A stretch of DNA of 36,997 nucleotides from Hyphomicrobium sp. (lineage in GTDB: Bacteria; Pseudomonadota; Alphaproteobacteria; Rhizobiales; Hyphomicrobiaceae). Shown piece after piece: positions 365 through 12,085 of the stretch; positions within the stretch are counted from its first letter, which is position 1, and each line of letters opens with the position of its first letter. The DNA is taken from the NCBI RefSeq assembly GCF_020852195.1, contig NZ_JADZBI010000107.1, positions 1 to 36,997 of the forward strand, read 5' to 3'. Made by a program: the position numbers and the translations under genes. The notes under the pieces are model-generated. The model worked only from the letters and a program-made list of their open reading frames with translations. It searched no databases and was not told where the DNA came from.

Positions 365-2374
365 TTATGTCGTTTCAGGCAGCCAGACCGTAAAGGTCGT
401 CCCTTTGCCGGGCGCGCTCTCGACGTCAAACATGCCGCCCTGTCGCGTGACCAGCTTGTGGCTTATGGACAAGCCCAGCCCCGTGCCGTTCCTCCGCTTG
501 GTGGTGAAGAACGGATCGAAAATGCGGGCCTTCACCCCCTCGCTCATGCCGACGCCGGTATCCCTCACCTCCATCACGATGCCCGCGCCGCCGTTCCTGT
601 CCTCGTCGCGCGTTTTGAGGAAAAGGCGGCCCCCCTCGGGCATGGCGTGGATGGCGTTGACCATCAGATTGACGAGCACCTGCTGCAGCTCCGTGCGGTT
701 CATGAGCACCATACGCTGGGCCCCCGCTTGATGGATGATGTCGATGTTATCGTTCTTGAGCAAATGTCGGATCAGCGGCAGGCTGTCGACGATCACGTCG
801 TCGGGCGCAAGGCGCTCGATATAGCCCGCGTATTCCTCCGGTCGGGCAAACTGCAGCAGCTTGGTGACGATCTGGCTGATGCGGTGAATCTGCTCATCGA
901 GCAGGCGGAACTCCACATGCGCCGGATCCGCATTGTTCTCCATAAGCGCGCGCACGACCTCGAGATTGCCCTGCATGACGGCGATGGGATTGTTGATCTC
1001 GTGGGCGACGCCGGCCGTGATCTCCCCGATCACGGCGAGCTTCTCCGACATGACGAGCTGCTTGGTTGTGGCTTCGAGCTGGCGGTTGGCGACTTCGAGA
1101 TCATGCGTACGCTCCGCCACGCGCGTATTCAGATCCTCGTTCCAGCCGCGAAGCTGGCGGTCGCGCTCCTGAAGCAGATCGAGCAAGTGATCCAATTGCG
1201 CCGCGACCCGGCCGATCTCGTCGCGGGCCGCGGCCGCGCCGGTGCGTGCGCTGAGATCGCCGGTTTCCACCTTGGCGATCGTGCCCATCATCCGTTCGAT
1301 GGGCCGAAAGATCGCGCCCGCCCAGCGGAGGAAGATCGGGACGCTCAAGGCGGCAACGCCCAGGAACGCGGACACAACGATCAGCAGGGTCTCCCGCCTC
1401 GCCTTGACGAAAGGCGCCTCGAGAAAGCCCACATAGAGCATACCGATGCGTCGGCCGGAGCTGCCAACGATCGGCTCATAGGCGGAGATGTACCAGTCGT
1501 TGACGACGAATGCACTATCAAGCCAGGTGTTGCCCTGGTCGAGCACGGCCAAACGCACGGCGGCTGAGACGCGGGTTCCGTTTGCGCGCTGCCCCTTGAA
1601 CAGACGCACATTTGTGGCGATTCGTACGTCGTCGAGAAAGATTGTGACTGTGCCCTGGCTGCCCTTGGGAAGGCTGGCCTCGCGATAGACGAGATCGTTG
1701 ATGGTATCGATGAATTTGAGGTTGGCGTTGAGCAGAATACCACCCACGAGCGCGCCCGACCGTCCGCCCGCCAGGGTGACGGGCGTCGCGGAGTGCACCA
1801 CCATCCCGCGTGTTTCCTCGGTGCGGTCGGTCGCAACAGCATTGGGAGTCGGCACAAGCTCCACGCGGGCGCGGGTGGCCAACTCCGGCCCGAAGGCGGC
1901 GAGATCTTCATTGTTGAAGATGTCGATCGAGGTCAGCGGCTTGTTCGCCAGAGCGGAAGCAATGATCGGCCAATCGGCGCGCGGCGACCGTTTGAACGGT
2001 CGTGCAGAGACCACCGGGTTTAGCCGGTCGTCGATGAGATAGAGGAAGTCGAAATCAAGAGCGACGCGGGTTTCGTCAAGCAAACCATCCAACGGTGCGC
2101 CTGCCTCCACCGCATCGCGCAAGCGCGTCGAGGCGCCGAATGCCGCGGCCTGCTTGCCGGTGTCTTCCAGAATACGAGCCAGATATTGGTGAGCGATGGT
2201 GAGGTCGCCGCTGACCTTGGAGATCAAGGTCGCATCGAAGTTGGCGTTCCATCGGTAGACGGCGATGCCGAGTAGCAGCGGCATCACCACCAACGTCGGC
2301 AGGAGCGCGATGGCGAGCAACCGGAACCGGACGGAAAGCCCTCGTTCTCGCGTTTCGGTTCCGATGTCGGTCAT
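365..2374 (-). CDS. membrane sensor histidine kinase (Cache-like sensor, HAMP, HisKA, HATPase)
   Basis: 669 residues. A first membrane helix lies at about 17-41 and a second at about 330-350, enclosing a periplasmic region of about 290 residues that resembles a Cache-type ligand sensor. A HAMP linker follows ('RPIERMMGTIAKVETGDLSAR', about 350-402), then a coiled coil, a dimerisation domain with the phospho-accepting His458 in 'GVAHEINNP', and an ATPase domain with the N box ('NLMVNAIHAM'), 'DTGVGM' and 'GTGLGLS'. The His-box type is the one usually paired with NtrC/DctD-like activators. It is the last gene of a probable LysR - response regulator - kinase unit, 65 bases after the regulator, with only a weak ribosome site. 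Its partner may therefore be the FixJ-like regulator next door or the sigma-54 activator at 6200-7588. The ligand is unknown; a small carboxylate would fit the neighbouring OFA transporter. Confidence 0.93.
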   Translation of the reverse strand: MTDIGTETRERGLSVRFRLLAIALLPTLVVMPLLLGIAVYRWNANFDATLISKVSGDLTIAHQYLARILEDTGKQAAAFGASTRLRDAVEAGAPLDGLLDETRVALDFDFLYLIDDRLNPVVSARPFKRSPRADWPIIASALANKPLTSIDIFNNEDLAAFGPELATRARVELVPTPNAVATDRTEETRGMVVHSATPVTLAGGRSGALVGGILLNANLKFIDTINDLVYREASLPKGSQGTVTIFLDDVRIATNVRLFKGQRANGTRVSAAVRLAVLDQGNTWLDSAFVVNDWYISAYEPIVGSSGRRIGMLYVGFLEAPFVKARRETLLIVVSAFLGVAALSVPIFLRWAGAIFRPIERMMGTIAKVETGDLSARTGAAAARDEIGRVAAQLDHLLDLLQERDRQLRGWNEDLNTRVAERTHDLEVANRQLEATTKQLVMSEKLAVIGEITAGVAHEINNPIAVMQGNLEVVRALMENNADPAHVEFRLLDEQIHRISQIVTKLLQFARPEEYAGYIERLAPDDVIVDSLPLIRHLLKNDNIDIIHQAGAQRMVLMNRTELQQVLVNLMVNAIHAMPEGGRLFLKTRDEDRNGGAGIVMEVRDTGVGMSEGVKARIFDPFFTTKRRNGTGLGLSISHKLVTRQGGMFDVESAPGKGTTFTVWLPETT

Positions 2375-2439: not shown

Positions 2440-3183
2440 TTAAAGCAACTGGGGCGATGAGATCACAGGGGCGCCCGCGCTCGGTGCGCAATGCGCTACC
2501 AAGGGGTTGGCTAGTCCATCGACAATTCTGATCAGCTCCGCAAGGTTTGTCACGCCCATCCGTCGCATGGCCTTGCTTCTGTACATTTTGACGGTATTTA
2601 GGCTGAGCCCCAGATCGCTGGCAATCTGCTTGCTGAGGCGACCGCGCGCGACGTGCTCGATCACCTCCCGCTCTCTCGGCCTCAAGGCCGCAAAGCGTCT
2701 GCGCGTCTCGGCCTTCCGGGCTTCAGCCATGCGGAAAGCGCGATCCCTATTGATGCCCTGACGCACGGCATCCAACACATCCGGATCGCGAAGCGGCTTC
2801 TCCAGGAAGTCGACGGCTCCCGCCTTGATGGCGCGAACGCATGTCGGCACATCCACGTGCCGTGCAATGAAAATAACGGGTAGAGAGCCGCCGAATTTCG
2901 CCAGACGGATCGGATAGTCAACCCCGCTCCACTCCGGCGTGCGGACGTCCAGGACGAGGCATGCGGCGTCGTCGCTGCGCCCTTGCAATGAAAACTCACG
3001 CAGCGACGTCAAGGCGTGAACTTGGTATCCGACCGAACACAACAGGTTCTCCAGGCCCTTGCGGACCGAGGTGTCATCGTCGACCACATAGATGGTACCA
3101 GCATGCACAGACATCATGCCCTCCATTGAACGGGAGCCCAACCCCCCAATAGTCTGAGGTGACGAAAGTATGTCGGCTGTCAT
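2440..3183 (-). CDS. FixJ/NarL-type response regulator (REC plus LuxR-type HTH)
   Basis: 247 residues if the first ATG is used. A receiver domain starts at 'TIYVVDDDTSVRKG', with the phospho-acceptor Asp79 in 'LVLDVRTPEWSG' and the conserved Lys in 'DFLEKPL'. A LuxR-type helix-turn-helix follows ('LRPREREVIEHVARG', 'SKQIASDLGLSLNTVKMY'). The residue that is Thr/Ser in nearly all receivers (FixJ Thr82) is Ala here ('FIARHVDV'), which may weaken the phosphorylation switch. Two starts are credible. The ATG at 3183 overlaps the LysR stop as ATGA and has GAGG seven bases ahead. The ATG at 3114 has GGAGG five bases ahead and would put the Asp at position 56, closer to FixJ Asp54. The regulator probably acts with the kinase downstream. 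Its targets are not visible. Confidence 0.9.
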   Translation of the reverse strand: MTADILSSPQTIGGLGSRSMEGMMSVHAGTIYVVDDDTSVRKGLENLLCSVGYQVHALTSLREFSLQGRSDDAACLVLDVRTPEWSGVDYPIRLAKFGGSLPVIFIARHVDVPTCVRAIKAGAVDFLEKPLRDPDVLDAVRQGINRDRAFRMAEARKAETRRRFAALRPREREVIEHVARGRLSKQIASDLGLSLNTVKMYRSKAMRRMGVTNLAELIRIVDGLANPLVAHCAPSAGAPVISSPQLL

Positions 3184-4106
3184 CCAGTGACCTCGCAGTT
3201 GATGTCGACGGTCGCGTCCGCAGTGTTCATGGCAACGGACAGGCGGTTTGCCTCATCCAGGAGCGCGGCGACCAGCGGCGTATTCGGCTCGCGTCGCATA
3301 GCGACGAGCCCGACGATGCGCCTAGCGTCAGGCTCGACGAGGGGAATAGCCCGGATCGCCGCGGTGAGGCTTGTTCTCGCGAGGTTCAGCGGAAGGATCG
3401 ACGACCAGCTGTCATCGCTGATATGCGAGACAAGCACCTGAATGGAGTTCGATTCCAGAACGGGCCGCGCGTTGGCGCGCGCCAGATGCTGGTCGATAAG
3501 TCCGCGGACGCGGGTATCGGAGGACAGCAGGCACAACGGGAGTCGGGCCGCACGCGCCCAACTTATTGCCTTCAGCTTTTTTGGCAGAACGCCATCCGCA
3601 GTCACAAGATAGTAACGTTCGGCATAGAGGGGGATAGAGACGACATGACCATCCGACTCGGTGTCGAGATACGTGATCCCTGCTTCAATGTCGAAATTTG
3701 CCAGCAGCGATGGGATCTCCGACGAGGCGCTCGCACGCACCGAGAAAGTGACGCCAGGGTGTTTCTCAAGGAGAGGCTTGGTAAGCCTCGCCACCATCTT
3801 GAGCGCCGTCGGAACGACGGCGATTCGCACGCATCCGGTGAGTCCGCGCTTCGCCGCGCGGATTTCCTCCTGCATTGCCCGTGTATCCGCCAGGATTCGC
3901 CGCGCCCACGTGAGCACTTGCTCGCCTTCTGGGGTCAGCCTACGGAAACGCGAGTCGCGCTCGACCAGCATGACGCCCAGTAAGCATTCGAGCTGCTTGA
4001 TGGACGCGGACAATGTCGGCTGGGTGATATTGCAGACCTCGGCGGCGCGACCGAAGTGCTTCTCCTTCGCAACCGCAATGAAGAGTTCGAGATGTTCGAT
4101 CAACAT
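3180..4106 (-). CDS. LysR-family transcriptional regulator
   Basis: 308 residues from the ATG at 4104-4106; the track extends 15 codons further to a GTG, but family members begin at 'MLIEHLELFIAVAKEKHFGRAA'-like sequence, as here. The N-terminal winged helix-turn-helix covers about 1-60 ('TQPTLSASIKQLE'), followed by a linker helix and a periplasmic-binding-protein-like effector domain containing 'VRIAVVPTALKMVARL'. It lies 116 bases downstream of the OFA transporter and overlaps the FixJ-like regulator by four bases (ATGA), so the two are probably translationally coupled. LysR proteins usually sense a small molecule and control neighbouring genes; the obvious candidates are the transporter and its own operon. 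A LysR gene coupled directly to a two-component pair is uncommon. Confidence 0.92.
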   Translation of the reverse strand: MLIEHLELFIAVAKEKHFGRAAEVCNITQPTLSASIKQLECLLGVMLVERDSRFRRLTPEGEQVLTWARRILADTRAMQEEIRAAKRGLTGCVRIAVVPTALKMVARLTKPLLEKHPGVTFSVRASASSEIPSLLANFDIEAGITYLDTESDGHVVSIPLYAERYYLVTADGVLPKKLKAISWARAARLPLCLLSSDTRVRGLIDQHLARANARPVLESNSIQVLVSHISDDSWSSILPLNLARTSLTAAIRAIPLVEPDARRIVGLVAMRREPNTPLVAALLDEANRLSVAMNTADATVDINCEVTG

Positions 4107-4222
4107 TGCGTTCTTCCCGCCGTCGTCGGTATAGCAATCTTCGAGGAGCACAACCGGGATCTGTCACCTGCCGGCTTCCGGCGCATGACAGGAGCGGCCG
4201 GGGTGGCCCCTGAGCGTAAGCG

Positions 4223-5917
4223 TCAGAACAGCGTCAGGGCTCTGGCGACCGTGTTCCAGACGCCCCACGCAAGCGGCAAGCCGACCAGCAGCCAGAGGCC
4301 GATGCCCTTGAGATCCAATCCACCCTTGCCGATTCCGAATGAGCCGGTTCCGGACGGCGTGCTCGCAGAGTGCGAAAGCTTGGCCCGCTCGGCAGCCACC
4401 TCCGTATCGCTCATGTGCCACTTCGGATTGACGGGCCTCACGAGCAGGTTGGCAATGAAGCCGATCACGAGCAGACCCGCAAGAATGTAGAAGATCTCGC
4501 CATAGATCTTGTCCGGCGGGATGCCCGATGCGGCCCGCGTATCGTGCAAGTAGTTCACGATCACCGGTCCGACGATGCCGGCCGTCGACCACGCAGTCAG
4601 AAGGCGGCCGTGGATCGCACCGACGAACTGCGTTCCGAAGACGTCGGCAAGATAGGCCGGGATGGTCGCGAAGCCTCCGCCGTACATCGACGCGATGATG
4701 CAGATCGCTGCCACGAAGAGCGCCATCGCCTTCCAATCCGCGGCAACCGAGGCCAGCACATAGAGTGCCCCGCCCAGTACGAAAAAGATGCAGTAGGTCA
4801 GCTTGCGGCCGAGCTTGTCCGAGGAGGTGGCCCACGCAAACCGACCGAAGATGTTGAACAACGAGATCAGCCCGACGAAGCCGGCCCCCACCGCGGCAGC
4901 CGACGCGAGCAGCGCCGGGTCCTTCTGCACGTCGAGATAGCCGAGCTCTGGTGCGCTCGCGAGCATGCCGCCGAACGTCTCTTGCAGCATGGGCGAGGCC
5001 GCGCCGATAATGCCGATGCAGGCCGACACGTTCATGCACAGCACGGTCCATAGCAGCCAGAACTGCGGCGTCTTGTGCGCGTTCTTGAGATGCACGTGCT
5101 TCGACGTGATCATCGCGTTCGATGTGTCGGGCGGCTTCCAGCCCTCCGGTTTCCAGCCATCCGGCGGCAGCCTGTATCCCGATGCACCGAGCCCCATGAA
5201 CACGGCATAGATCACCGCTAAGGCGACGAACGTGGCCGCCACGCCGGGATCGGCAGGCGTCTTGAACTGGTTCATCAGGAAGGTGGCGAGTGGCGAGCCG
5301 ATCATGGCGCCGCCACCGAATCCCATGATCGCCATGCCGGTCGCCATGCCGCGACGGTCTGGGAACCACTTGATCAGCGTCGAGACCGGGGAGATGTAGC
5401 CGAGCCCCAGGCCGATGCCGCCGATGATGCCCGAGCCGAGCCAAAGCAGCCAAAGCTGATGTAGGTAAACGCCGAGCGCCGAGATGAGCAGACCGCCGGA
5501 CCAACAGATTGCCGCCACGGTACCGGCCCTTCGGGGTCCGGCCCGCTCGAGCCAGGCGCCCCAGATCGCCGCAGACACGCCGAGCATGACGAAGAAGAAG
5601 GTATACATCCAGCCGAGGTCGAACTGGCTCCAGTTGCAGTCGGTGGCGAACAACGCCTTGGCGGTGCCGGCCGCCTTCTCCGAAAACGTCGTCGCGCCCT
5701 CCGAGCAACTCGGCAGGGCTTTGCCATCGGCACCGACGAGCACACCCTCGAGCGGCTTCCAGAACACCGAGAACCCGTACGCCATGCCGATGCAGAGGTG
5801 GATACAGAGCGCGGCAGGCGGCACGTGCCATCGATTGAAACCGGCTTTGGCGATGATTCTTTCTCGGTCGAAAATGCCGGGCGCGATTTGATTTGGAGCG
5901 CGGATTCCGATTGTCAC
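4223..5917 (-). CDS. OFA-family MFS transporter (oxalate/formate antiporter type)
   Basis: 564 residues from a GTG start chosen because GGGAGGA lies six bases upstream and the sequence further upstream (to 6034) is not protein-like. The protein is a 12-helix major facilitator of the OFA family: it has 'GMAYGFSVFWKPLEG' in the first helix, 'DRRGMATGMAIMGFGGGA' after the central helices, and an 'LFNIFGRFAWATSSDKLGRK' motif in the second half. A loop of about 50 residues between helices 1 and 2 and a hydrophilic C-terminal stretch before a last helix make it longer than OxlT (about 418 residues). The family exchanges oxalate for formate or takes up other small monocarboxylates; the substrate here cannot be read from sequence. 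A sigma-54 promoter and two enhancer-like palindromes lie upstream, and the NtrC-type activator gene is next to it. Confidence 0.9.
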   Translation of the reverse strand: MTIGIRAPNQIAPGIFDRERIIAKAGFNRWHVPPAALCIHLCIGMAYGFSVFWKPLEGVLVGADGKALPSCSEGATTFSEKAAGTAKALFATDCNWSQFDLGWMYTFFFVMLGVSAAIWGAWLERAGPRRAGTVAAICWSGGLLISALGVYLHQLWLLWLGSGIIGGIGLGLGYISPVSTLIKWFPDRRGMATGMAIMGFGGGAMIGSPLATFLMNQFKTPADPGVAATFVALAVIYAVFMGLGASGYRLPPDGWKPEGWKPPDTSNAMITSKHVHLKNAHKTPQFWLLWTVLCMNVSACIGIIGAASPMLQETFGGMLASAPELGYLDVQKDPALLASAAAVGAGFVGLISLFNIFGRFAWATSSDKLGRKLTYCIFFVLGGALYVLASVAADWKAMALFVAAICIIASMYGGGFATIPAYLADVFGTQFVGAIHGRLLTAWSTAGIVGPVIVNYLHDTRAASGIPPDKIYGEIFYILAGLLVIGFIANLLVRPVNPKWHMSDTEVAAERAKLSHSASTPSGTGSFGIGKGGLDLKGIGLWLLVGLPLAWGVWNTVARALTLF

Positions 5918-5930: not shown

Positions 5931-6034
5931 GATTGGTGCGATCTACCGATTGCGTCGCTTTGGAATGAGGGCCGGTCGCCGCTGTTGAAGCTCACGCTTC
6001 CTCGCTGCATCGTGCCGCTCTTCACGGCGCGCAT

Positions 6035-6050
6035 AGCAACCAGCGGGCCA
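6035..6050 (-). promoter_or_regulatory. sigma-54 (RpoN) promoter of the OFA transporter
   Basis: The minus strand reads TGGCCCGCTGGTTGCT, which matches the consensus TGGCAC-N5-TTGCW with one change. The invariant GG (6049/6048) and GC (6037/6036) are separated by exactly ten bases. Transcription would begin near 6024, giving a leader of about 107 bases. An activator of the class that sigma-54 needs is encoded immediately upstream. Confidence 0.7.
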
Positions 6051-6097
6051 ATTCGGGCCGAGAATTATTTCAAGGAGTTATGGAAGGTCTCCCGCAG

Positions 6098-6120
6098 TGC
6101 GGGGACAGATTGTCCCCGCA
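6098..6120. promoter_or_regulatory. perfect inverted repeat, probable enhancer site 1
   Basis: Ten-base arms TGCGGGGACA and TGTCCCCGCA flank the trinucleotide GAT. The centre (6109) lies about 85 bases upstream of the predicted sigma-54 start, a usual distance for an NtrC-type activator site. It shares the core GGACA-N3-TGTCC with the neighbouring site, so the same dimeric protein probably binds both. A terminator for the upstream gene is less likely because no T run follows on either strand. Confidence 0.65.
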
Positions 6121-6123
6121 CGC

Positions 6124-6140
6124 TCGGACAAACTGTCCGA
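6124..6140. promoter_or_regulatory. perfect inverted repeat, probable enhancer site 2
   Basis: Seven-base arms TCGGACA and TGTCCGA flank AAC. The centre (6132) is 23 bases from that of site 1, about two helical turns, so both sites face nearly the same side of the DNA. The core GGACA-N3-TGTCC is identical to site 1 apart from the spacer. Confidence 0.65.
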
Positions 6141-6199: not shown

Positions 6200-7588
6200 C
6201 TAGAGACCCCACGACGCGCATTTTCGATCGATCGTCTTGCGCGATACGCCGAGCCGCCGCGCGGCTTCCTGGCGGTCGCCACCAGCCTCTCCCAGCACGG
6301 ACAGGATGTGCCTTCGCTCCACGTCCGCCAGGCTCTGCCCAGCGTGAGTGGAAGGTTCCGCTGCTCGTTCGAAGTCATCCGGGAAGCGGCCGAGGATCAA
6401 TGTCCGCTCGATGAAATTGCGCAATTCCCTGACGTTTCCGGGCCAGCTGTACCGCAAGAGAAAAGAGCGCGCCTTCTCGTCCAGTGCAACGGGAGGCACG
6501 CCGAGCTGCTGGGAAAGCTTGCGCATGAAGAGCGCGGCAAGATCCAGCACATCGCCGTCGCGATCCTTCAACGGCGGCAAGTGGATATGCATGACGTTGA
6601 TACGAAAGTAGAGATCGGCTCTGAACGTCCCCGCTTCGACGCTCCGCTGCAGATCCGCGTTGGTGGCGAAGATAAGACGAAGGTCGACGAAGAACTCGCG
6701 TTCCGAGCCGACCGGCCGTACGCGTCGATCTTCGATCACACGCAAGAGCTTGCTCTGCAGGGCGTATGGCAGCTCGCTGATTTCATCGAGGAACAGCGTC
6801 CCGCCCTGCGCGTGCATGAACAGGCCCTGACGCACCGTGTCGGCGCCCGTGAACGCGCCCTTCAAATGGCCGAACAGCTCACTCTCGAGTACGTCCGCGG
6901 GGATTGCGCCACAATTGACCGGCACGAATAATTTATCGGCCCGATTGGACAGGGAATGGAGCGAGCGGGCCGCGACTTCCTTGCCCGTGCCCGAATGGCC
7001 CGTGAGCAGGACCGAGGTGGGCAACGGGGCAACCCGCGCTATGGTCTCGCGCACGTGCTGAATCGCGTTGGAGCTGCCGATCAACTTGTCACGCAAGAGA
7101 AGCTGGTCTGCAGACGACTTCAGCTCGTAACGCAGCACATGGTTCTCACGCAGCAAACGCACCCGATCAAGACAGCGCGCCACTGCATTGAGTAGTTGGT
7201 TGGAGCGGAAGGGCTTCAGGACGAAATCAACAACACCGGCGCGCAATGCCTGGATGGCGGTGTCCAGATCCGCATACGCGGTCATGAGGATCACGTCGGC
7301 GAAAAGACCAATCGACCGTTGCTCGACGAGCCAGTCGATTCCGTTCTTGCCCGGCATGATGTTGTCGAGGATGACGACGTCGTAGTGCCGTTCATCGAGC
7401 TTGCGCGACGCCTCTTGCGCGTCTGCGGCTTCGTCAAGACGCTTGCAGCGTGGCTTGAGAACGCGAACCAGGAAATTGCGCATTCCCGGCTCGTCGTCCA
7501 CGATCAGGATCGACGCCTGCGCCAACCATGGCCCGTACTCGGGATCGACGCTTGACCCACCGAGCTTTCCGGCTGGTTCAACAGGCAT
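6200..7588 (-). CDS. NtrC-family sigma-54-dependent response regulator
   Basis: 462 residues from the ATG at 7586-7588, chosen because GGAGGAG lies just upstream and because the longer track ORF lacks such a site. It has a receiver domain ('ILIVDDEPGMRNFL', acceptor Asp in 'VVILDNIMPGKNG', Thr in 'LMTAYADLD', Lys in 'FVLKPF'). An AAA+ domain follows with Walker A 'GHSGTGKE', the sigma-54 contact motif GAFTGA, 'GGTLFLDEI' and 'RADLYFRINVM'. The C-terminus carries a Fis-type helix-turn-helix ('EAARRLGVSRKTIDRK'). All parts are intact. It should activate the OFA transporter from the two palindromes in the 282-base gap just downstream of its own stop. No kinase is adjacent; the kinase at 365-2374 is the nearest candidate. 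Confidence 0.93.
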   Translation of the reverse strand: MPVEPAGKLGGSSVDPEYGPWLAQASILIVDDEPGMRNFLVRVLKPRCKRLDEAADAQEASRKLDERHYDVVILDNIMPGKNGIDWLVEQRSIGLFADVILMTAYADLDTAIQALRAGVVDFVLKPFRSNQLLNAVARCLDRVRLLRENHVLRYELKSSADQLLLRDKLIGSSNAIQHVRETIARVAPLPTSVLLTGHSGTGKEVAARSLHSLSNRADKLFVPVNCGAIPADVLESELFGHLKGAFTGADTVRQGLFMHAQGGTLFLDEISELPYALQSKLLRVIEDRRVRPVGSEREFFVDLRLIFATNADLQRSVEAGTFRADLYFRINVMHIHLPPLKDRDGDVLDLAALFMRKLSQQLGVPPVALDEKARSFLLRYSWPGNVRELRNFIERTLILGRFPDDFERAAEPSTHAGQSLADVERRHILSVLGEAGGDRQEAARRLGVSRKTIDRKCASWGL

Positions 7589-9625: not shown

Positions 9626-12085
9626 ATGGTCAAGAACCCGCACGACGTCTCGGGCGTCGAGAGTGAAAAGCGCCAGCCGGCGCGAAGCGACGAAACGGCG
9701 GTGCCGCGGGAGACGTTCGACCAGAAACCCCGGATGGAAACTCGGCCGTTCAACGACGACGAGACAACGCGATCGGCGAAGGCGAGCAAGCGGCACGTTG
9801 AGGGCGTCGAGACCTACACGGGACCTGCCGGCGGCTGGGGTGCCCTCAAGGCCGTCGCACGAGCGCTCAGCAACGAGATGTCCGTCTCGGTACCGCGCGA
9901 GATGAAGGGGCTGCTGACCCTGAACCAGCCGACCGGATTCGACTGTCCCGGCTGCGCATGGCCGGATCCGCGGCATACCTCATCGTTCGAGTTCTGCGAG
10001 AACGGTGCCAAGGCTGTCGCATGGGAGGCGACCAGCAAGCGTACCACACCGGAGTTTTTCGCAACCCATACCGTCTCGGAGCTGTGGACTTGGTCGGATC
10101 TCGCGCTGGAAGGCGAAGGCCGTCTGACACATCCGCTGGCCTATGATGCCGCGACTGACACCTATCGCCCGATCGCATGGGAGGACGCCTTTCGGCGCAT
10201 CGGCGAGGCGCTGCGCGCCCTGCCCGATCCGAACATGGCCGAATTCTACACCTCGGGCCGGACGTCGAACGAGGCAGCGTTCCTCTACCAGCTCTTTGTG
10301 CGCGAGTACGGAACCAACAACTTCCCCGACTGCTCCAACATGTGCCACGAGGCGACGAGCGTCGGGCTGCCGGAGTCGATCGGGGTCGGGAAGGGGACGG
10401 TCACGCTCGAGGATTTCGACCATGCCGATGCGATCTTCTGCATCGGCCACAACCCCGGCACCAATCACCCGCGCATGCTCGGCACTCTGCGCGAAGCGTC
10501 CCGGAGGGGCTGCAAGATCGTGGTGTTCAACCCCTTGCGCGAGCGGGGGCTCGAGCGTTTCCAGAACCCGCAGAACCCGTTCGAAATGGCGACGCTCGGC
10601 TCCACGCCGATCGCGTCATCTTACTACCAGGTCGCGATCGGCGGCGACATGGCCGTTCTCAAGGGAATGATGAAGCACCTGATCGCGTTGGATCGTGCCC
10701 AGACGGCAGCGGACAACCCGGGTGTCCTCGATCGCGCGTTCATCGCCGAAAACACGAACGGCTTCGATGCACTTGTGGCCGACATCGACACGTTGGACTG
10801 GTCGCAGATTGAACGATACGCAGGCCTGTCGCGTGCCGATATCGAAGCGGCGGCACAGGCATACGCCGAGGCCGAGCGCGTGATCGTGTGCTACGGCATG
10901 GGAGTAACGCAGCACCGTCATGGGACGTCTAACGTCCACCAGATCGCCAACCTGCTTTTGATGCGCGGTAACATCGGCAGGGAGGGCGCCGGCATCTGTC
11001 CGTTGCGTGGACATTCGAATGTCCAGGGCGACCGTACGGTCGGCATCACGGAGATCCCGTCGGATGAGCTGCTCGATAACCTCGAGCGTGCATTTCCCAT
11101 CAAGGCACCGCGCCATAAGGGCCACAATGCAGTCGAAGCCATTGAAGCGATCAGCAAGGGTCACGCAAAGGCCCTGATCTCCCTTGGTGGTAACCTGGCC
11201 GTGGCGATGCCCGATCCGGATGTCACGTTTCCGGCCATGCGACAGCTGGATCTCGCGGTTCACATCGCGACGAAATTGAACAGATCGCACCTTCTCCTCG
11301 CCAAGCAGAGCTTCATCCTGCCGTGTCTCGGACGAACCGAGCTCGATATCCAGGAAACGGGACGACAGAGCGTGACAGTGGAAGATTCCATGTCCATGGT
11401 GCATGCATCCTCCGGCGGGCTCAAGCCTGCGTCGGAACACCTAAAGTCAGAGCCTGCGATCGTCGCTGAGCTCGCATTGGCCACGTTGCCGAACACCCGG
11501 GTACCTTGGCGCGAGCTGGTCGCCGACTACAGTCGCATTCGCGACAAGATCGAGGCCGTGTTTCCGGACTTTCACGACTTCAACCAGCGCGTGGCGCGTC
11601 GGGGAGGATTTCGACTGACCGTGCCAGCGTCGAAGCGCGTCTGGAAAACCAGATCCGGCAAGGCCGAGTTCATCGTTGCGCCGGGACTGGAGGAAGACCC
11701 GAGATGCAATCAATCCGGTGCTCTTATCCTCGCGACCGTGCGTAGCCACGACCAATACAATACGACGATCTATACTCTGGACGACCGTTATCGGGGCATC
11801 ACGGGACGGCGCGACATCCTCTTTATGAATGTGGGGGATCTGGCTGCCCGCGGGCTGCGGCACGGTGATGTGGTCGACGTCGAGACGGTCTGCAACGAGG
11901 GTGATGCTTCGCGCACATTGTCCGGATTGACGGTCGTCGCGTTCGATATCGCCGCCGGCTCGGTCGCCGCATACTATCCGGAAGCGAACAACTTGATCGC
12001 CATCGATCAGTACGACCGCCGGAGCGGCACGCCGTCCTATAAATCCGTGCCCGTTTCCGTAAGACGCGCGGCTCGGCCCATCTGA
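9626..12085 (+). CDS. FdhF/YdeP-type molybdopterin oxidoreductase (formate-dehydrogenase-like)
   Basis: 819 residues; GGAG lies eight bases before the ATG. After a hydrophilic, probably disordered tail of about 70 residues comes 'GGWGALKAVARAL' and an iron-sulfur region with Cys107, Cys110 and Cys124 ('FDCPGCAWPDP', 'FCENGAK'). The active-site segment is 'NMCHEATSVGLPESIG', aligning with the selenocysteine-His segment of FdhF; Cys240 is the predicted molybdenum ligand and His241 follows. Cofactor-binding motifs include 'GHNPGTNHPRMLG' and 'GNIGREGAGICPLRGHSNVQG'. The C-terminal molybdopterin-guanine-dinucleotide domain is complete. There is no Tat signal, so it is cytoplasmic. E. coli YdeP is linked to acid resistance, and its reaction is not settled. 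The OFA transporter nearby makes formate or a related acid a reasonable guess. No FdhD or electron-transfer subunit is adjacent. Confidence 0.88.
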   Translation: MVKNPHDVSGVESEKRQPARSDETAVPRETFDQKPRMETRPFNDDETTRSAKASKRHVEGVETYTGPAGGWGALKAVARALSNEMSVSVPREMKGLLTLNQPTGFDCPGCAWPDPRHTSSFEFCENGAKAVAWEATSKRTTPEFFATHTVSELWTWSDLALEGEGRLTHPLAYDAATDTYRPIAWEDAFRRIGEALRALPDPNMAEFYTSGRTSNEAAFLYQLFVREYGTNNFPDCSNMCHEATSVGLPESIGVGKGTVTLEDFDHADAIFCIGHNPGTNHPRMLGTLREASRRGCKIVVFNPLRERGLERFQNPQNPFEMATLGSTPIASSYYQVAIGGDMAVLKGMMKHLIALDRAQTAADNPGVLDRAFIAENTNGFDALVADIDTLDWSQIERYAGLSRADIEAAAQAYAEAERVIVCYGMGVTQHRHGTSNVHQIANLLLMRGNIGREGAGICPLRGHSNVQGDRTVGITEIPSDELLDNLERAFPIKAPRHKGHNAVEAIEAISKGHAKALISLGGNLAVAMPDPDVTFPAMRQLDLAVHIATKLNRSHLLLAKQSFILPCLGRTELDIQETGRQSVTVEDSMSMVHASSGGLKPASEHLKSEPAIVAELALATLPNTRVPWRELVADYSRIRDKIEAVFPDFHDFNQRVARRGGFRLTVPASKRVWKTRSGKAEFIVAPGLEEDPRCNQSGALILATVRSHDQYNTTIYTLDDRYRGITGRRDILFMNVGDLAARGLRHGDVVDVETVCNEGDASRTLSGLTVVAFDIAAGSVAAYYPEANNLIAIDQYDRRSGTPSYKSVPVSVRRAARPI

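Follow-up and report, generated by a model that had tools for sequence, protein, structure and literature searches.

How is the OFA-type transporter gene on a contig of Hyphomicrobium sp. (36,997 nucleotides, the whole stretch analysed and hereafter the window) switched on, and by which regulator? The DNA in front of this gene is very likely an enhancer-dependent promoter, driven by the NtrC-type regulator encoded at 6200-7588 together with the kinase encoded at 365-2374. This reading draws on sequence architecture, conservation, co-occurrence of the DNA motif with the activator, a recognition helix common to the activator family, and genes for RpoN and IHF-alpha in the genome; within it, we infer binding, phosphotransfer, signal and transport substrate. 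The elements follow one another on the minus strand in the 5′ to 3′ order end of the NtrC-type gene, distal palindrome, proximal palindrome, TAACTCCTTGAAA, TGGCCCGCTGGTTGCT, predicted transcription start, GGAGG ribosome site and GTG start codon at 5917.

The sigma-54 -24/-12 element, TGGCCCGCTGGTTGCT (6050-6035, minus strand), was read from the sequence and recovered by a promoter scan. A GG-N10-GC promoter with one consensus mismatch had been proposed in a first-pass annotation of this DNA, and that description is exact: the sole departure from TGGCACG-N4-TTGCW is an A-to-C change, the GG/GC pair is intact, and the element fits GG-N10-GC within TGGCAYR-N4-TTGCW at one mismatch. The position of this promoter predicts a +1 for the OFA transcript at about 6024, and RpoN itself is encoded in the same genome (450 bits, over the cut-off). 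The target gene (4223-5917, minus strand) is best taken as starting at the GTG at 5917 instead of at the ATG of a longer frame (6034), because the latter lies upstream of the predicted transcription start, at the -12 element. Its product matches MFS_1 and carries the C-terminal MFS_OXA small-subunit tail, reaches 145 bits against TIGR00890 (cut-off 375), and scores nearest the SfMCT lactate transporter model at 312, just under the cut-off of 320; the transporter appears OFA-like.

Upstream of the promoter lie two perfect palindromes, neither assigned a strand. The proximal one, TGCGGGGACA-N3-TGTCCCCGCA, spans 6098-6120 (core GGACAGATTGTCC, 6103-6115, centre 6109) and was also picked up in the promoter scans; the distal one, TCGGACA-N3-TGTCCGA, spans 6124-6140 (core GGACAAACTGTCC, 6126-6138, centre 6132). 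Judged by eye, perfect pairing extends to 10+3+10 and 7+3+7 positions, respectively. The centres are 23 bp apart, as had been claimed for the two GGACA-N3-TGTCC palindromes, and the proximal one is 59 bp from the -24 element. Their earlier placement at 85 and 108 bp upstream of the start agrees with a +1 near 6024, and the activator gene, said to end about 60 bases past the second palindrome, has its last codon at 6200-6202, some 62 bp from the distal palindrome. The 4.24-Mb genome holds only four perfect GGACA-N3-TGTCC sites, two of which are the window pair; with about 2 background sites per 4.24 Mb, the probability that a given site has another perfect one no more than 50 bp away is about 5e-5, and the pair is not a product of chance. 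The other two sites (C192:3897 and C261:1584) were rejected as targets: each stands alone within an ORF, no good sigma-54 element is near it, and the scan for UAS-promoter combinations gave no hit there. A repeated upstream dyad that is conserved, phased and associated with an activator gene has the makings of a UAS, and we treat the pair as a putative one.

Between this UAS and the promoter sits an IHF-like site, TAACTCCTTGAAA (6080-6068, minus strand), with one mismatch to the consensus YAANNNNTTGATW. It lies 29 bp from the centre of the proximal palindrome, and its position is conserved in relatives. The first-pass annotation had the coordinates and description of the parts that it named right; it missed this site and the sensor kinase. 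Across 197 UAS-promoter rows, YAANNNNTTGATW occurs at 0-1 mismatch in 135, against about 2% of shuffled spacers, a count that is descriptive because the rows are related and many promoters were counted once per palindrome and hence twice. Almost all of the matches fall at the same place, 28-30 bp away when measured from the centre of the proximal palindrome and 51-53 bp when measured from that of the distal palindrome; in the OFA set alone, 42 of 72 have a site with 0-1 mismatch. With the consensus between UAS and -24 and with ihfA (IHF-alpha) encoded in the window genome, the promoter is a candidate for IHF assistance.

The gene beside the promoter (6200-7588, minus strand; P0001, 462 aa) encodes an NtrC-type response regulator, recognized from its domain matches and its orthologs in relatives. 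Receiver, sigma-54 AAA+ and Fis-type HTH domains are all there, as are the receiver Asp, the Walker A motif GHSGTGKE and GAFTGA, with the stop codon at 6200-6202, which bears out the claim of an intact GAFTGA activator gene and gives the domain set of an NtrC-type (group I) bEBP. The protein matches the NtrC superfamily and scores well below the NCBIfam curated cut-off of each named equivalog among NtrC, AtoC, ZraR, NtrX and FlbD (AtoC 373 versus 714, NtrC 358 versus 559, ZraR 318 versus 760). Its recognition-helix region, EAARRLG[IV]SRKT[IV]DRK, is nearly invariant in the activator family over 49-100% overall identity and is absent from the other NtrC proteins of the order, which differ there.

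A probable cognate sensor histidine kinase is encoded at 365-2374 (minus strand), with a presumably periplasmic sCache_3_3 domain followed by HAMP, HisKA and HATPase. It is 57-74% identical to the kinase that adjoins the activator in most orthologous loci. The window departs from this arrangement: 3.8 kb separate the kinase gene from the activator gene, with the OFA gene, a LysR gene (3180-4118) and a FixJ-type regulator gene (2440-3183) in between; the pairing of these non-adjacent genes is based on orthology. Since the activator appears to have a cognate kinase, the system is a candidate two-component system.

Conservation of the palindromes and of the GG/GC elements at orthologous loci had been set beforehand as the test of the proposal. 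We collected 84 activator-bearing loci, 76 of them with an OFA gene nearby, which with the window makes 77 related loci, many from Bradyrhizobium, that are not 77 independent observations. The order activator-kinase-OFA is kept across Rhizobiales and also in Thalassospira and Stappiaceae, where the OFAs are more divergent; in most loci the kinase follows the activator and OFA is usually the third gene, and in a Hyphomicrobium MAG the kinase follows OFA. The palindrome pair (at most one mismatch per site) stands upstream of OFA in 75 of the 77 loci, and in the two without a strict pair (L048 and L114) the second site has two mismatches. Pair spacing is 20-24 bp in 58 loci (mostly 22-24) and 42-43 bp in 17 (Thalassospira, Stappiaceae and others), or about two and four helical turns. 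A good -24/-12 element (promoter score at least 18) is present in 72 of 77. The proximal centre lies 59 bp from the promoter in 49 loci, 58-62 bp in ten more and 74 bp in 11, the last in loci with the 42-43 bp pair spacing. This distance is nearly constant, and the reversed-sequence control returned no UAS-promoter combinations. These regularities also bear on whether the palindromes are instead RNA hairpins, for example a terminator of the activator gene. The window pair could fold and comes about 60 bp after the activator stop codon, but no T-run follows it, the gene before the pair is in most orthologs that of the kinase rather than that of the activator, and the pairs of the stress islands described below stand before divergent or stand-alone genes. 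A promoter spacing mostly fixed at 59 bp and half-sites kept in sequence, not just in pairing, make hairpins a highly improbable explanation.

Whether the motif belongs to this activator was addressed in 398 genomes of the order, with the activator called at E <= 1e-120 and the motif defined as the exact tandem palindrome. The motif occurs in 23 genomes (its reversed pattern in none), the activator in 44, and both in 16. The motif is thus present in 16 of 44 genomes with the activator versus 7 of 354 without it (Fisher p = 4e-12, an optimistic value because the genomes are related). A different regulator, LysR- or FixJ-type or a repressor, could bind the palindromes while another activator serves the sigma-54 element, and the LysR and FixJ-type genes downstream in the window, together with a LysR gene near OFA in Thalassospira, Stappiaceae and G086, would fit such an arrangement. 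We judge it unlikely: in most loci of Rhizobium, Mesorhizobium and Bradyrhizobium the motif is present with neither LysR nor FixJ beside OFA, the motif also stands at non-OFA genes in activator-bearing genomes (in several, before multiple genes each), and its presence tracks the activator. The NtrC-type regulator is accordingly the protein that we match to the motif. The claim of a control region for an unnamed NtrC-type regulator gains support from the conservation and from this tracking, and it was too narrow, as the kinase makes the system a two-component one and the motif is not OFA-specific.

The seven genomes with the motif and without the activator comprise three with a dispersed repeat, two with an apparent coding repeat, G311, in which kinase and OFA nevertheless adjoin the motif, and G346, which falls in none of these groups. 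A dispersed GGACATCYTGTCCGC...GCGGACARGATGTCC pair was seen at L120, L121 and L122 (G177, G205 and G251, all of one family), which are without the activator, and is possibly a REP-like repeat. One could therefore ask whether the motif pair is everywhere a dispersed REP-like repeat unconnected with the activator, given the similar GGACATCYTGTCC pairs dispersed through those family f50 genomes and the repeat resembling coding sequence in G348 and G374. Such repeats are a most implausible source of the window pair, as a good sigma-54 element is lacking at the required distance from the REP-like copies checked (L120 and L122), the window genome has only four perfect palindromes, and in activator-bearing genomes the pair is placed non-randomly, at sigma-54 promoters.

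How far would a regulon built on this element reach beyond OFA? Eight activator loci have no adjacent OFA gene, and six of them (Bradyrhizobium tropiciagri, B. uaiense, B. acaciae, Bradyrhizobium sp. CER78 and two Rhizobiales isolates) carry the same pair, the 59 bp spacing and a sigma-54 element before other genes, with such modules recurring several times within 30 kb. The first downstream genes include Hsp70, Hsp20, ClpB, HdeD-like DUF308, Fe/Mn SOD, CsbD and GNAT, and in G268 FdhE and bestrophin; CbpA (DnaJ) and Dyp peroxidase genes are located in the same stress islands. Islands with several UAS-IHF-promoter modules before chaperone, HdeD-like, SOD and FdhE genes were seen at L170/L171 (B. 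uaiense), L172, L177, L173/L174, L175 and L061. A single island of the gammaproteobacterium Frateuria (L113/L176) brings together a YdeP-like oxidoreductase, HdeD, DnaK, CbpA, activator, kinase, OFA, Dyp peroxidase and bestrophin; motif pairs precede HdeD, OFA and a stretch after OFA. In the regulator tree, the window and its Hyphomicrobium relative form a group (98/91) whose sister is the stress-island clade (the join has 100/99), and both nest inside a broader set mostly adjoining OFA. This nesting suggests that the OFA switch came first and that the stress island was recruited later, an order that we infer from the tree.

Genes for NAD-dependent formate dehydrogenase and molybdopterin flank the Rhizobium and Bradyrhizobium OFA loci. 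In E. coli, the YdeP and HdeD families are known to act in acid resistance, and NCBIfam also names YdeP accordingly. On account of these neighbours, and of the stress and formate-dehydrogenase-related genes placed under the same element, we give about an even chance to a signal that is a carboxylic acid, formate/oxalate or acid stress; a nitrogen cue is probably not the case. The window itself encodes a recurrent neighbour of the regulator, also seen beside it in several of the stress islands: an FdhF/YdeP-family molybdopterin oxidoreductase (9626-12085, plus strand), which is 49-62% identical to its counterparts in L058, L113, L170, L174, L175 and L177. No recognisable UAS pair precedes it or the window's porin gene, where only scattered single sites with two mismatches were found. 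The window locus is nearest to that of a Hyphomicrobium MAG. None of the genus mates searched carries the activator and the genome bin has 4.87% contamination, so that the window may hold a recent acquisition or be a foreign contig.

These observations can be assembled into a mechanism. The sCache domain of the kinase would detect a periplasmic ligand or a stress, and the kinase would phosphorylate the regulator, which would then oligomerise on the two in-phase GGACA-N3-TGTCC sites. With the DNA between UAS and promoter bent by IHF, the GAFTGA loop would remodel sigma-54 RNA polymerase at TGGCCCG-N4-TTGCT for a start near 6024. In the sister clade, the same regulator family would act through the same element on an island of chaperone, acid-stress and formate-dehydrogenase-related genes. 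The wider picture that we favour, with fair confidence, is of a horizontally mobile and undescribed sigma-54 two-component stress system of Alphaproteobacteria, also found in Frateuria, in which one kinase-regulator pair and one rigid enhancer-IHF-promoter module serve OFA in most lineages and a whole island in the sister clade (Hsp70, CbpA, ClpB, Hsp20, HdeD-like, SOD, peroxidase and formate-dehydrogenase-related genes). If that picture is true, a heat-shock/acid regulon would be under sigma-54 instead of sigma-32, and, through the link to the chaperone/acid-stress island, heat-shock genes would be turned on by an unusual route, sigma-54 plus a two-component system; that link also suggests weak organic acids or acid stress as the likely signal. 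Additionally, an orphan enhancer-binding protein family in many rhizobia and other soil and marine bacteria gains a candidate binding motif, sensor partner and target set, and the rigid promoter layout can be scanned for in any genome.

Among known systems, the rhizobial MctSR and RpuSR are alike in the dedicated two-component control of an organic-acid transporter and differ in their proteins and in their target, MctP instead of OFA. RpuR is LuxR-type, its kinase is SLC5/STAC and its target is the monocarboxylate permease MctP, not OFA (PMC9100948). The NCBIfam MctR model gives a weak match to the window's FixJ-like protein and is missing from the 25 best matches listed for the activator. The Desulfovibrio EBP regulome (PMC4641369), from a different phylum, catalogues bEBP motifs beside sigma-54 promoters derived in the same way, and its running text, figure logos aside, contains neither the GGACA nor the TGTCC string. 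The chaperone passage of a PSSM survey (PMC12316311) gives dnaK, dnaJ and ibpA as computationally predicted sigma-54 targets, with such chaperone targets enriched in Planctomycetota and Bacteroidota, and that passage names no activator or motif of the window's kind. In the open-licence papers covered, we did not find the regulator, motif or stress island named, nor the GGACA-N3-TGTCC motif and target set described for any AtoSC/NtrBC/ZraSR-type system. The regulator, motif and regulon appear undescribed, and the mechanism appears to be textbook sigma-54. What the window has in common with AtoSC/NtrBC/ZraSR-type systems is a receiver-AAA+(GAFTGA)-Fis HTH protein with a paired kinase, a tandem palindromic UAS about 100 bp upstream and a -24/-12 promoter, and its IHF-like site lies between UAS and promoter as in many sigma-54 promoters. 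Our best reading of the locus is a bEBP regulon that is so far undescribed and built on an ordinary sigma-54 plan.
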